From positions 62,001 to 126,000 of the forward strand of contig JAFTNZ010000018.1 of NCBI GenBank assembly GCA_017451645.1: a stretch of 64,000 nt of DNA, written 5' to 3'. The notes beneath the pieces were generated by a model that made no database searches, had not been told where the DNA came from, and saw nothing but the letters and a program-made list of their open reading frames with translations. This document shows positions 49,200 to 54,675 of the stretch, one piece after another; position 1 is the first letter of the stretch; the number at the start of each line of letters is the position of its first letter. This stretch comes from Bacteroidaceae bacterium. GTDB taxonomy: Bacteria > Bacteroidota > Bacteroidia > Bacteroidales > Bacteroidaceae. A program made the translations under genes and the position numbers.

Positions 49200-49625
49200 A
49201 TGAAAAGTGACCCAAAAGAATGTCTCTATTGTACCAATAATGAGACACTGCACAACCTGATGATTGAGATTGCCCATCTGAGTGTATCACGTGTTTTCCT
49301 TTTCAAGGAGCAGACTTACCATGGGCGTTGCCTTGTAGCTTACGACGGACATGTGAACGATCTCTTTGAGCTGACCGACGAAGAGCGTAATGCATTCATG
49401 GCAGATGTAGTACGCGTGACCCGTGCTATGGATAAAGTGTTCCACCCGGAAAAAATTAATTATGGAGCTTACAGCGACAAACTTTCACACCTACATTTCC
49501 ACCTGGCTCCCAAGTATGTAGATGGCCCTGACTACGGAGGAACATTCCAAATGAATCCCGGCAAAGTCTATCTTACAGAAAAGGAATATGAGCAAATGAT
49601 TGAAGCCATCAAGAAAGAATTATAA
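49200..49625 (+). CDS. HIT-family nucleotide-binding protein
   Basis: A 141-residue cytoplasmic protein with a Cys-x2-Cys (ECLYCTNNETLH) near the start and the histidine triad HLHFHLAPK near the end. HIT proteins are nucleotidyl hydrolases or transferases acting on AMP-linked substrates. The gene has its own promoter and a terminator that precedes the next gene by 16 bp. Confidence 0.92.
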   Translation: MKSDPKECLYCTNNETLHNLMIEIAHLSVSRVFLFKEQTYHGRCLVAYDGHVNDLFELTDEERNAFMADVVRVTRAMDKVFHPEKINYGAYSDKLSHLHFHLAPKYVDGPDYGGTFQMNPGKVYLTEKEYEQMIEAIKKEL

Positions 49626-49682: not shown

Positions 49683-52043
49683 ATGAATCCACAAACAGAC
49701 TGTTTTCTCCCCCTCGGACATAAAGAGGATGCACTTGCCATTGTAAAAGAATTAAGAGATTGCCCACTCATCGGTGAAATCCACTTTATGTGTCCCGTGC
49801 CTCCTTCCGAGACTGATTGGTTACCTGCAGGATGCCATCTGTTGCCATGTCAGACACCATTCACACATGCAGCCAATCTGAGCATTATCCGCCAGTTGAT
49901 GCGAGGAGATTATGCCCTTATTTATACCAAATGTACCCCTATAAAATTGGGGTATAGAGCCATTGAACGAATGCTACACGTGGCTCATGCCACTCGCACA
50001 AGCATGGTCTATGCCGACCACCACGTGCAAAATGGAGAAACAGACCTGCCACATCCTCTCATTGATTATCAGGAAGGGAGTCTGCGCAACGACTTCGATT
50101 TTGGTGCTCTGCTGTTAGTGAATGAACAAGCATTGGCATCTGTTGCAAGCAGTGAATGCGGACATCTGAAACACTGCGGCTTCTATTTGTTGGCATTATC
50201 CTATATCAATAGCCAAAAGACACCGCCAGTTCATTTGAGTGAATATCTTTACACTATTCAGGAAAGTGACAAACGTACTTCGGGAGAGAAACAGTTTGAC
50301 TATGTCAATCCGTCACAATCTGAGGTCCAAAAAGAGATGGAAGAAGTGTGTACCAACTTCCTCAAGCAATGCAAAGCCTACATACATCCCAAAGAATTGT
50401 TTACTCCCGATTTCTCTGCAGGCAATTTCCAGAATGAAGCCTCAGTCATCATTCCTGTCAGAAATCGGGCACGTACCATAGCAGACGCAATAGCATCCGC
50501 CCTAACACAAAAAACTGACTTTACTTACAACGTCATCGTTGTGGACAACCACTCTACGGACGGAACCACAGACATCATTGCCCGACTGGCCTCTGATGAC
50601 AACCGACTCATCCACCTTCGTCCTCAACGCACAGACTTAGGCATAGGTGGTTGTTGGAATTTGGCAATACACCACCCACAATGCGGACGCTTTGCTGTAC
50701 AACTTGACAGTGACGATCTCTACAGCAGTGACACAACATTGCAAACAATGGTCAATGCATTCTACGAACAGAAGGCAGCCATGGTGGTGGGTTCATACCG
50801 TATGACGGACTTCAACCTGCAGACTCTTCCTCCCGGAATCATTGACCATCGTGAATGGACAGCAGAAAACGGGCACAATAATTTACTCCGCGTAAACGGA
50901 ATCGGAGCCCCTCGAGCTTTCTTCACTCCAGTGCTAAGAAATGAAGTAGAGATTCCAAACATCAGCTATGGTGAGGATTATGCTATCGCTCTGACCATTA
51001 GCCGGACTTACCGTATAGGCCGGGTATTCGATGTCGTCTATCTATGCCGGAGGTGGGAAGGAAACTCTGATGCCAACCTCAATATCCAACAAGTGAACGC
51101 TCATAATCAGTTGAAAGACAAATTGCGAACTTTCGAGCTAAATGCACGAAAGAAGAGCGATAAGTTCGGATTCCGCAACAAAACAGAACAATCTGTACCA
51201 GAAACGAAAGAGACTTGTAACGGTTTCATCCTGCAACAAAATGCCCCGCGCATACAATCAGCGTCAACCGATCTAAAAAAGATAGACAAACGTCCCTGCT
51301 TTCTTTGTAAAGAGAACCGCCCGACCACACAACTATCATGTGGCAGGATACGGAATTTTACAGCATTGGAGAACCCCTATCCTGTACTGAAAGAGCATCT
51401 GACCATCACCGCTAATTCACACGTACCGCAAACAATTCTTCCGCAACTGAGTTTGATGAAAGATTTGGCTCATGAGGACGAAAGATTAATCGTATTTTAC
51501 AATGGCCCCAAATGTGGTGCTTCAGCTCCTGATCATGCACATTTTCAAGTAGGAATCAACCCCGGACTTCCATTGACACACAAAAGCTACCCAAAAGAAC
51601 TTATAGCCAAAAAGATTTCTAATTCTTCTTCATCCGAAAGCCTCTATCTGCTCATCGACTACCCATGTCCAGTATTCCTCATAGAGACCAATTCACAGAT
51701 GGATGAATCCTGTTTGTTTGACACGCTCTACAAAGCACTCCCCCTTGTCGAAGGTGAAAGCGAACCACGGATGAATGTTCTCATCTGTTCTTCTAACATT
51801 TATGTTATCCCGCGCAGCAAACACCGTCCAAGTTGTTATTACGCCACAGAAGACGAGCAATTGTTGATCAGTCCAGCTTCTTTAGAAATGGCCGGTTTCT
51901 TCCCAATTGCCCGTAAAGAAGATTTTCTACGCATGGACGAACATAGAATAAAACATATTCTAAAAGAAGTCACCCTTTCTGGAGAAGAGATAAAAAAGGT
52001 TTGTCAACAGGTAAAAAACATTTTAGCAACAACCAAAGGATGA
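49683..52043 (+). CDS. glycosyltransferase fused to a DUF4922 GalT/HIT-type nucleotidyltransferase
   Basis: A 786-residue cytoplasmic protein in three parts. Residues 1-240 look like a degenerate GT-A domain ([23 protein letters not shown]). Residues about 253-480 are a family 2 glycosyltransferase ([29 protein letters not shown], metal site LDSDD with Asp342/344, SYGEDYAI). Residues about 510-780 are DUF4922, with Cys539-x2-Cys542 ([11 protein letters not shown]) and HxHxQ at 618-622 (DHAHFQ), the catalytic motif of galactose-1-phosphate uridylyltransferases and Ap4A phosphorylases. It may both activate and transfer a sugar. It is coupled (ATGA) to the SpoIID-like gene. Function unknown. Confidence 0.82.
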
Positions 52044-53356
52044 AAACACCATTAATCAACGTAGGTATCGTCAATGCACAAGAAATCAAGTTCTCCCTCA
52101 ATATGAACTATTCAGCCAAGGGAGGTACTTACCGTGGCGAACAGTCCGTATCCTTTAAGGAAGGAGGTATTTTGTGGAATGGGAATCTCTATCAGGAACT
52201 GACCTTCATCCCTATAGAAGATGATGCATCTTTTTCACTTTATGATGTCACGATCGGTATCAACTTTCATTGGGAACGACAAGAGACCCAGATATTCCAA
52301 GGCGTACTGAAATTAGTCATTGAAGAAGGGAAAATTACGGCCATCAACATCCTCTCGGTGGAGGATTATCTGGTTTCCGTCATCTCTTCAGAAATGAAAG
52401 CAACCTCCTCATTGGAATTTCTCAAAGCACACGCTGTAGTTTCCCGAAGTTGGCTTTATGCACAAATTGAGAGACGCAAGACTTTGGTAAAGAAGAATGT
52501 AGGAAACTTTTTTTCTTTCATCAAAAACGACACGGAACTCATCCGTTGGTATGACCGAGAAGACCACACAATCTTTGATGTATGTGCCGACGACCACTGC
52601 CAACGCTATCAGGGTATCACGAAAGCTACCAAAGAAGAAGTTGTCGAAGCCGTACTTGCCACCAGTGGACAAGTGCTGACATACCATGGAAACATTTGCG
52701 ATGCACGCTTCTCAAAATGTTGTGGTGGTATTACCGAAGAATTTGAATATTGTTGGGAAGACAAACATCTGCCTTACTTGAAAGCCAAAGCTGATATTCC
52801 AGAAAGGAAAGACAACACGACAGATCTGACACAAGAACAGAATGCCGATCATTGGATACGCACTAGTCCGAAAGCTTTCTGTAACACGAAAAACAAACGT
52901 ATCATTTCACAAATTCTAAATAATTATGACCAAGAAACTACCGATTTCTACAGATGGAAAGTCTGCTATACACAATCGGAACTGACAGAACTGATAAACC
53001 AACGCACCAAAATTGACTTCGGAGACATCATCGACCTCGTTCCTTTGCAACGTGGAAAATCAGGGAGAATCACCCGCCTGCAAATTGTTGGCAGCAAACG
53101 AAGCATGTGTATCGGCAAAGAGTTGGAAATACGACGCACTCTCTCAACTTCTCATCTCTTCAGTTCCGCCTTCGTCGTTGACAAAGGTGAACAGATTGAA
53201 GGTGTTCCACAAACATTCACTTTAACCGGAGCAGGTTGGGGACACGGTGTAGGACTATGCCAAATCGGAGCTGCGGTTATGGGAGAAAAAGGATATACAT
53301 ACGACCAAATATTGCTGCATTATTACGATGGTGCTGAGATAAGAACCATGTATTGA
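52040..53356 (+). CDS. SpoIID/LytB-like protein without visible signal peptide
   Basis: The ATG at 52040 overlaps the preceding stop (ATGA), giving 438 residues. The SpoIID domain is clear: [34 protein letters not shown] with the catalytic-type Glu118; His176, Cys182, His186 and Cys187 ([14 protein letters not shown]) resemble the zinc cluster of clostridial Spo[18 protein letters not shown] lies near the C-terminus. SpoIID trims peptide-free glycan strands of the wall. No signal peptide or membrane helix is seen, so it may be cytoplasmic, which is unusual. It is followed 23 bp later by the AmpG-like gene. Confidence 0.85.
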
Positions 53357-53379
53357 CCAAATCATAGACACACACAAAC

Positions 53380-54675
53380 ATGGAAAAGACCAAACATTCA
53401 GCATGGAGCTGGATACCCACACTCTATTTTGCCGAGGGACTTCCTTATTTTGCCGTCATGTCATTGGCTGTCATCATGTATCAGAACATGGGATTGAGTG
53501 ACAAGGAAGTAGCCTTTTATACAAGTTGGTTGGGACTTCCTTGGGTCATCAAGCCCATATGGAGCCCCTTCATAGACATCATCCGAACCAAACGATTTTG
53601 GGTACTTTCCATGCAAGGCCTGATGGCTGCTGCGTTCGCTTGCATCGCATTCTTCATGCCTACCACATTTCTTGTGCAAGGAACTATGTCTTGCTTTGCC
53701 TTGATGGCCTTTGCCAGCGCCACCCACGATATTGCAGCCGATGGTTACTATATGCTGGCACTCAATCCCAAAGAACAATCATTCTTTGTCGGTCTACGGA
53801 ATACATTTTATCGTTGTGGAAGTATTTTTGGCCAAGGAGTATTGGTTATGTTGGCAGGTTTATTGGCTGAAGGAAAGATTTTTCCTGAATTCAAAGGGAA
53901 TGTTGTCCTCAGCTGGACCATAGTATTCTACTTGCTCTGTGCCATTTTTATTACTCTTTTCCTTTATCACAGCCGCACCATGCCAAAAGTAGAAAAAACT
54001 CCAGCCCCCTGCAACAATCAAAGCTTCAGACATCTGTTGGAAGAGTTCTGTAAGACTGTCGTATCCTTTTTTCAAAAACAACATATCGGATGGGCACTAT
54101 TCTTTATTTTGACTTACCGATTGGGAGAATCACAGTTGGCAAAGATTGCACCTCTTTTTGTGTTGGCCACACCAGAGAAAGGAGGTCTGGGACTTTCTAC
54201 AACCACGGTCGGTGGAATTTACGGTACCCTTGGTGTTATAGCTCTGCTGTCAGGAGGTATAGTTGCAGGCATCATGGTATCACGTAAGGGACTGAAATAT
54301 TGGATTATCCCCATGGCATTAGCCATCAATATTCCCGATATTCTTTATGTTTTTCTGGCTTGGATCCAATGCTCTAATCTTTGGATTATCACCTCTTGTG
54401 TTGTCATTGAACAATTTGGATACGGCATCGGATTTGCTGCTTATATGCTATACCTTATATATATAGCACGCGGAGCACACAAGACGGCACATTATGCTAT
54501 AGCCACAGGCTTGATGGCTGCAGGCATGGCCTTTCCTGGTATGATAGCCGGATGGCTTTCCGACAATTTGGGATACACCTCCTTTTTTATCATTGTCTGT
54601 CTTTGTACAATTCCAGGCATTCTTGCCTCATTTAAAATCCGACGACTATTACCTGCCGAATTTGGAAAGGAGTAA
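53380..54675 (+). CDS. ampG: AmpG-like MFS permease (muropeptide importer type)
   Basis: A 431-residue inner-membrane protein with about 12 hydrophobic helices. The first segment, LYFAEGLPYFAVMSLAVIMYQNMGLSDKEVAFYTSWLGLPWVIKPIWSP, is typical of AmpG and related carriers; the second half has the GIVAGIMVSRKGLKYWIIPMAL loop. AmpG imports GlcNAc-anhydroMurNAc peptides for recycling. In Bacteroidetes similar carriers serve MurNAc use. Its place behind a SpoIID-like gene and a nucleotidyltransferase fusion supports a cell-wall recycling role. Substrate is inferred. Confidence 0.87.
   Translation: MEKTKHSAWSWIPTLYFAEGLPYFAVMSLAVIMYQNMGLSDKEVAFYTSWLGLPWVIKPIWSPFIDIIRTKRFWVLSMQGLMAAAFACIAFFMPTTFLVQGTMSCFALMAFASATHDIAADGYYMLALNPKEQSFFVGLRNTFYRCGSIFGQGVLVMLAGLLAEGKIFPEFKGNVVLSWTIVFYLLCAIFITLFLYHSRTMPKVEKTPAPCNNQSFRHLLEEFCKTVVSFFQKQHIGWALFFILTYRLGESQLAKIAPLFVLATPEKGGLGLSTTTVGGIYGTLGVIALLSGGIVAGIMVSRKGLKYWIIPMALAINIPDILYVFLAWIQCSNLWIITSCVVIEQFGYGIGFAAYMLYLIYIARGAHKTAHYAIATGLMAAGMAFPGMIAGWLSDNLGYTSFFIIVCLCTIPGILASFKIRRLLPAEFGKE

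Follow-up and report, generated by a model that had tools for sequence, protein, structure and literature searches.

A leaderless SpoIID-family protein encoded between a glycosyltransferase-DUF4922 fusion and an AmpG-family permease in Bacteroidales: a candidate unit for cytoplasmic salvage of cell wall disaccharides

We analyzed a 64,000-nucleotide stretch (hereafter, the window) of contig JAFTNZ010000018.1 from a Bacteroidaceae bacterium, in which the open reading frame (ORF) list places three plus-strand genes head to tail at positions 49683–54675. The first (49683–52043, 786 amino acids) fuses a family 2 glycosyltransferase (GT2) to a DUF4922 domain, the second (52040–53356, 438 amino acids from the ATG at 52040) encodes a SpoIID/LytB-family protein, and the third (53380–54675, 431 amino acids) encodes an AmpG-family permease of the major facilitator superfamily. 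Genes 1 and 2 share an ATGA stop/start overlap (52040–52043, plus strand), and the AmpG gene starts 23 bp past the end of the SpoIID gene. The source genome, G000, is a 2.5 Mb assembly with an estimated completeness of 72.6%.

In the first protein, residues 254–381 (50442–50825, plus strand) match Glycos_transf_2 (Pfam PF00535, E 6.4e-21) and residues 513–624 (51219–51554, plus strand) match DUF4922 (Pfam E 4.5e-39). The glycosyltransferase (GT) part finds its best solved-structure matches in two-domain chondroitin synthases, and by eye residues 1–245 possibly form a second, divergent GT-A domain; residues 679–764 match ATP_transf just below the Pfam cut-off, suggestive of an ATP-adenylyltransferase-like tail. 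Two motifs are invariant in an alignment of 29 hand-chosen DUF4922 rows, CFLC (residues 539–542, 51297–51308, plus strand) and HxHxQ (residues 618–622, 51534–51548, plus strand). A 29-member DUF4922 profile matches the yeast diadenosine tetraphosphate (Ap4A) phosphorylase (4i5t, E 4.8e-6; 4i5v, E 2.6e-4) with HxHxQ aligned to the DHKHLQ of that enzyme (the 4i5v chain has Ala for the second His of 4i5t), and 23 of the 29 members match Ap4A_phos_N at E≤0.01. No GalT was among the matches of the profile in the solved-structure search; a direct hhalign comparison with E. coli GalT yields two local matches, weak but collinear (P 0.01 and 0.022, probability <5%), which pair CFLC with CFLC 52–55 of GalT and HxHxQ with its HPHGQ at 164. 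These two signatures support an assignment of DUF4922 to the Ap4A-phosphorylase/GalT kind, in which His620 would be the residue expected to be nucleotidylated; in GalT, CFLC has a role in zinc binding. DUF4922 thus has HxHxQ in common with GalT and Ap4A phosphorylase (Apa2), CFLC with GalT, and a profile match to Apa2, and differs from both, and from the plant GDP-L-galactose phosphorylase, in being fused or adjacent to GT2 and SpoIID. DUF4922 is named in the literature on the plant enzyme.

The second protein matches SpoIID (Pfam E 4e-25; TIGR02669 E 3e-53), and E118, H176, C182, H186, and C187 are invariant in an alignment of 54 hand-chosen orthologues. The Glu118 codon (52391–52393, plus strand) lies in an S-E-M motif that pairs with the SEM of 4rwr; this residue and the Cys182-His186-Cys187 cluster (52583–52600, plus strand), which is presumably a zinc site, are also kept in a second, secreted type of SpoIID. 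The domain, the catalytic-type Glu, and the Cys/His cluster are common to the SpoIID/LytB lytic transglycosylases of Bacillus subtilis, Clostridioides difficile, and the Chlamydia-related Waddlia. The operon-type protein is set apart from these by several type-specific insertions (window residues 144–152, 154–171, 257–278, and 288–304), by fusion to DUF4922 in five loci, and by the lack of a signal peptide, none being visible from the ATG at 52040.

Among 68 operon-type N-termini (67 related loci and the window), most start M..(E)P.V.VGIM without a leader, a set that leaves out six loci with a SpoIID match (L004, L064, L071, L073, L077, L079) and includes three in which the chosen start is internal (L015, L037, L065). 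By our own hydrophobicity threshold for leader-like starts (1.6), 65 of the 68 fall below (L049, L050, and L061 lie above), whereas 18 of 20 hand-picked places of the shorter, secreted type pass; the two that do not are L107, with an internal ATG only, and L094, at 1.53. The threshold passes 59 of 61 NamZ, 53 of 57 amidase, and 15 of 15 metallophosphatase controls, against 1 of 52 MurK-type, 0 of 15 MurQ-type, and 0 of 48 oxidase sequences. The VGIM start of the signal-less type is matched, in the secreted type, by the sequence that follows the leader, and five genomes (G253, G284, G338, G370, G439) hold one SpoIID place of each. Moreover, in five loci (L134, L135, L136, L063, L133) SpoIID lies behind DUF4922 in one reading frame, and in L133 a glycosyltransferase precedes both in the same frame, with the contig ending inside SpoIID. 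Given the absence of the leader seen in its secreted counterparts, and the five fusions behind DUF4922, the operon-type SpoIID is, as judged from these sequences, very probably cytoplasmic; a leaderless SpoIID behind a nucleotide-dependent enzyme is hard to place outside the cytoplasm.

The third protein matches the AmpG family TIGR00901 at E 4.8e-51 (174 bits, against a model cut-off of 350 bits) and the solved AmpG 8zgz at E 4e-19. These results bear out the description given in a first-pass annotation of this DNA: three co-directional genes with an ATGA overlap and a 23-bp gap, a GT2 domain joined to a GalT/HIT-type domain with HxHxQ at 618–622, a SpoIID with Glu118 and a His/Cys cluster and no signal peptide, and an AmpG-like third gene. 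In Tannerella forsythia, AmpG is functional and is the reported importer of the disaccharides of N-acetylglucosamine (GlcNAc) with N-acetylmuramic acid (MurNAc) or 1,6-anhydro-MurNAc (anhMurNAc), GlcNAc-MurNAc and GlcNAc-anhMurNAc (PMC5388701, PMC7670621). A long form of AmpG, 614–761 amino acids, occurs in 14 of 74 genes (L004:11705–13567 and 13 other loci), with an insert after approximately model position 167 that looks beta-rich, probably lies in a periplasmic loop (topology by eye), and holds no Pfam domain in the one sequence scanned.

To place the unit among relatives we took the best 80 of 120 loci in the genome collection, picked by similarity to gene 1 and therefore not an unbiased sample. 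GT/DUF4922, SpoIID, and AmpG follow one another in this order on one strand in 70 of the 80. The remaining ten comprise five at a contig edge (L045, L046, L056, L072, L079), three with no SpoIID there (L044, L047, and L062, the last without AmpG too), and two with no AmpG (L014, L028). With 70 of 80 loci alike, the gene order is not due to chance. GT and DUF4922 share one ORF in the window and in seven of the 80 loci, and are separate neighboring genes in most relatives. In L011, L026, L027, L071, and L075, DUF4922 is preceded by two tandem GT copies, and in G230 the genes lie on two contigs (L139, L140): one bears a GT-DUF4922 fusion and the other a further GT beside SpoIID and a long AmpG, so that the unit is divided and the GT is present twice.

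The same association is seen in 198 Bacteroidales genomes sampled evenly across the order. DUF4922 is matched in 43, strongly in 42 (G415, E 2e-6, was dropped). Same-strand SpoIID is found at a distance of up to 3 kb in 26 of the 42, and AmpG at up to 4.5 kb in 31; 24 genomes have both this close and 9 have neither, some of the breaks between unit genes being contig ends. When SpoIID types are read off the match table by matched length (≥320 nt for the operon type, 43 genomes; about 280 nt or less for the other), the operon type is present in 42/42 genomes with strong DUF4922 and in 1 of the 156 others (G341). Independent pairs on a RecA tree run 6:0 for DUF4922 and SpoIID (p 0.03); this tree is midpoint-rooted, covers 140 of the 198 genomes, has 29 of 136 inner branches well supported, and omits 7 of the 42 DUF4922-positive genomes (G000, G256, G271, G301, G373, G384, G396).

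The surroundings of the unit point to the cell wall. Gene clustering over the 80 loci and the window finds the following recurrent flanks, as lower bounds since the loci are cut at their ends: an amidase-like protein with a golvesin domain (56), NamZ (51), an FAD/Fe-S oxidase (48), an HGSNAT-like membrane protein (45), a BadF-type kinase (43), and a SIS-domain protein (15). Pfam results on one representative per cluster agree, the Amidase_3 and BadF family matches being sub-threshold. By analogy with the T. forsythia operon, the HGSNAT-like, BadF-type, and SIS proteins may be read as MurT, MurK, and MurQ, and the oxidase may serve as a D-lactate dehydrogenase. None of these flanking genes was found in the analyzed stretches of the window and of its nearest relatives, L002 and L003. 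In the window, a gene for a 141-amino-acid HIT-family protein (49200–49625, same strand) lies 57 bp upstream of the unit; it is not recurrent in other loci.

Such an operon has been published. In T. forsythia, Tanf_08345–08385 form one transcription unit comprising 'xanthan lyase', gtf, gtf, lytB, ampG, ybbC, and murTKQ (PMC5388701), so that the gtf-gtf-lytB-ampG operon is already known; a second MurNAc kinase is placed directly upstream of the cluster (PMC10465942). By its gene names it resembles the window in the gtf-gtf-lytB-ampG order, and also in having no predicted AnmK (PMC5388701), with ybbC taken as the NamZ-type gene; it differs in its amidase/NamZ/MurTKQ-type flanks, which the window locus does not have. 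T. forsythia shows AmpG-dependent growth on GlcNAc-anhMurNAc (PMC5388701, PMC7670621). It reaches an optical density (OD) of ∼0.8 on Slt70 digests rich in GlcNAc-anhMurNAc-peptides, with a comparable value after amidase treatment, and ∼0.28 on free anhMurNAc, wild type and ampG mutant alike (PMC5388701). The operon is termed 'glycosylation related', after earlier work (PMC5388701); in the sections consulted, the legend of a figure gives gtf and lytB by name but neither gene is studied, and neither paper mentions DUF4922 (PMC5388701, PMC7670621). Nor, among the papers listed in literature searches on DUF4922, on SpoIID with AmpG, and on SpoIID export, did any assign a role to GT-DUF4922-SpoIID, some of these lists being capped and subscription papers mostly outside reach. 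What is new here is the very probably cytoplasmic SpoIID type, the DUF4922 signatures, the co-occurrence of DUF4922 with SpoIID, and the AnmK, NagZ, and AmgK-MurU-like findings that follow.

An AnmK match is present in 5/42 DUF4922-positive and 130/156 DUF4922-negative genomes (Fisher p 7e-18), so that 37 of the 42 have none. It is likewise missing from 14 of the 16 genomes behind hand-chosen loci, including two Bacteroides fragilis, B. faecis, and B. salyersiae; of the two matches one contains a stop codon, and one of the 16 genomes (G238) is also in the 198-genome comparison. The NagZ model (NF003740) has no match above its cut-off in the 8 DUF4922-positive genomes searched. A hidden cytoplasmic NagZ was considered and rejected: the best hits in five of the eight are long GH3 frames of ∼990–1060 amino acids (the loci cover 844–923 of these) with leader-like starts by eye, a check that extends to the five strongest hits, with weaker ones, including all of G338 and G366, outside it. 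G000, at 72.6% completeness, has no AnmK and no NagZ match. Compared with the E. coli AmpG-NagZ-AnmK-MurQ recycling route, the AmpG-family importer is held in common, while GT2-DUF4922-SpoIID adjoin it in place of the two enzymes for which G000 shows no match. MurQ (≥166 bits) is found in 23/42 DUF4922-positive and 20/156 other genomes; thus about half of the former show no MurQ.

Candidate enzymes for the activation of MurNAc are encoded elsewhere in the genome. At C23 ∼165558–167716 of G000 (L294:3059–5217), a MurU-sized nucleotidyltransferase gene overlaps one for an AmgK-like kinase (APH and RapZ_C). Five of seven MurU-like loci were scanned by Pfam, and the pair lies side by side in G000, G396, G439, and G230, with an APH gene upstream in G269. 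The MurU model has no discriminating power here, since none of the 198 genomes is above its cut-off and all 14 controls match below it. T. forsythia is reported to use AmgK/MurU (PMC5388701, PMC7670621). The first-pass annotation had proposed a route without the usual MurU-type enzyme, a claim that is not supported, as G000 has the AmgK-MurU-like pair; DUF4922 as a MurU replacement was rejected for this reason. The wider assignment of the unit to cell wall sugar salvage stands, and the gene order, for which a synteny check had been suggested, is kept far beyond close relatives. The remark that no MurQ, NagZ, or AmgK gene lies nearby is right for the window, but many relatives carry MurT-, MurK-, NamZ-, and sometimes MurQ-type genes at the same locus. 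Because these genomes tend to lack AnmK and, in the eight searched, an above-cut-off NagZ match, the unit is better suited to a step that precedes the activation of MurNAc than to that activation.

GT2, DUF4922, and SpoIID evidently act together, and the DUF4922-SpoIID fusions, the 42/42 co-occurrence, and the NamZ/MurT/MurK/MurQ-type neighbors tie GT2 and DUF4922 to wall sugars. We propose, with a probability of roughly 0.4, that the three work together to cleave the GlcNAc-(anhydro)MurNAc imported by AmpG, inside the cytoplasm, and so stand in for NagZ and AnmK, by a chemistry that we infer as set out below. Also in favor are the missing leader of SpoIID, the scarcity of AnmK, the lack of above-cut-off NagZ matches in the eight genomes searched, and the growth of T. 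forsythia, which has no predicted AnmK, on GlcNAc-anhMurNAc by way of AmpG. AmpG, by analogy with that of T. forsythia, would bring peptide-free GlcNAc-anhMurNAc and GlcNAc-MurNAc into the cytoplasm, where a GT2, DUF4922, and SpoIID multienzyme would turn them into free MurNAc and either GlcNAc or GlcNAc-1-phosphate. The GT2, of inverting type, would run backward on the beta-GlcNAc-MurNAc bond, using a nucleoside diphosphate (NDP); inverting GT2 chemistry suits a beta-GlcNAc bond, and sucrose synthase offers a parallel for a glycosyltransferase run in reverse. DUF4922 would phosphorolyse the NDP-GlcNAc so formed, by way of a nucleotidyl-His620 intermediate, and thereby pull the reaction, and the MurNAc would pass to AmgK/MurU, for which G000 has candidates, and in relatives also to MurK/MurQ. 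SpoIID would act at C1 of MurNAc, where SpoIID chemistry takes place, and open the 1,6-anhydro ring by hydrolysis. Such an opening in a peptide-free disaccharide is plausible because a chlamydia-related SpoIID, a lytic transglycosylase that yields anhydro products on peptidoglycan, acts as a muramidase, by hydrolysis, on denuded glycan (PMC6635528). A narrower version is rather doubtful: one composite enzyme (a single polypeptide in at least one species, that of L133) would split wall disaccharides by phosphorolysis, with SpoIID opening the ring, the GT running in reverse, and a GalT-like phosphorylase yielding GlcNAc-1-phosphate.

Several points weigh against this proposal. We know of no activity for this GT2, for DUF4922, or for the signal-less SpoIID type, and the SpoIIDs of B. 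subtilis and of the chlamydia-related bacterium cut between MurNAc and GlcNAc rather than at the GlcNAc-MurNAc bond. SpoIID is not within 3 kb in 16 of the 42 DUF4922-positive genomes, three loci have no SpoIID beside DUF4922, and outside the order two GT-DUF4922 pairs with a close GT homologue (L082:1036–3436, L085:1015–3440) show no SpoIID or AmpG in their short flanks. Five DUF4922-positive genomes keep an AnmK match. For DUF4922 and AnmK, the seven independent pairs on well-supported branches of the RecA tree split into averages of 0.1 (same), 2.5 (opposite), and 4.5 (no difference), with a median p of 0.5. As this test is not significant, the anticorrelation is partly shared ancestry, and in its raw form it was dropped as proof. 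AmpG against AnmK shows nothing in the same test (1.2 same, 1.6 opposite). A Pagel-type likelihood test on that tree yields p 6e-5 for the DUF4922-AnmK pair; as the DUF4922-MurQ (0.0006) and MurQ-AnmK (0.03) pairs also give low values, the test lacks specificity. The lack of a match for a cytoplasmic hexosaminidase comes from the NagZ search, other families not having been searched for. G000, at its 72.6% completeness, has no NamZ match and no full MurQ match, with only a weak SIS-type match to MurQ. Lastly, where T. forsythia grows poorly on free anhMurNAc, inefficient import may be the cause, according to the authors of that study (PMC5388701).

Two other readings we consider unlikely, each less so than those that follow them. 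In the first, which is close to the idea of the first-pass annotation, the unit serves cytoplasmic salvage with GT2 and DUF4922 working toward synthesis: sugars are freed by SpoIID or some other enzyme, and DUF4922 turns a salvaged sugar-1-phosphate into a nucleotide sugar, which GT2 then consumes. The CFLC and HxHxQ of DUF4922, as in GalT, the fusion of GT2 to DUF4922 in several loci, and the normally synthetic action of GT2 enzymes all agree with it. It has no known acceptor, the same genome has an AmgK-MurU-like pair, and the splitting of the AmpG cargo without NagZ and AnmK would be left unexplained. In the second, GT2-DUF4922 synthesizes or trims a surface glycan or a protein-linked one, and has no more than an operon in common with wall salvage. 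The label 'glycosylation related' for the T. forsythia operon (PMC5388701) favors this, as do the polysaccharide synthases that are the best solved GT matches and the GT-DUF4922 pairs outside Bacteroidales without SpoIID or AmpG in their short flanks. The five DUF4922-SpoIID fusion loci, the 42/42 co-occurrence, and the NamZ/MurT/MurK/MurQ-type neighbors speak against it, and so does a locus outside the order (L084:1–2427) in which DUF4922 is accompanied by a SpoIID homologue, at the edge of the locus, and preceded by a glycosyltransferase-like gene.

It is less probable still that DUF4922 is a housekeeping Ap4A or NDP-sugar phosphorylase engaged in nucleotide clean-up, with no direct link to wall sugars: Ap4A phosphorylase is the only solved relative found and 23/29 members match Ap4A_phos_N, yet fusions to GT2 and SpoIID in several loci would not be expected of such an enzyme. 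Least probable of all is non-classical export of SpoIID to cut periplasmic peptidoglycan, the operon being one of ordinary wall turnover with AmpG recycling; the SpoIIDs studied so far act on wall peptidoglycan, the catalytic Glu and Cys/His cluster are kept, and T. forsythia cell extracts are reported to show lytic transglycosylase and muramidase activity, as against the absence of a leader found in the secreted sister type, the fusion behind nucleotide-dependent domains, and the presence of both SpoIID types in the same five genomes.

If cytoplasmic splitting of imported wall disaccharides by GT2, DUF4922, and SpoIID is correct, this would be the first SpoIID-family enzyme known to us to act in the cytoplasm, and DUF4922 would gain a context. 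A phosphorolytic composite enzyme, should that be true, would add a further way of recycling MurNAc disaccharides without NagZ or AnmK. GT2-DUF4922-SpoIID is a concrete candidate for the enzymes by which T. forsythia, with no predicted AnmK, uses GlcNAc-anhMurNAc. The unit occurs in common gut Bacteroides relatives, within a group of gut and rumen bacteria, and the way in which gut Bacteroidales turn over wall sugars may influence the set of muropeptides that the host receives.

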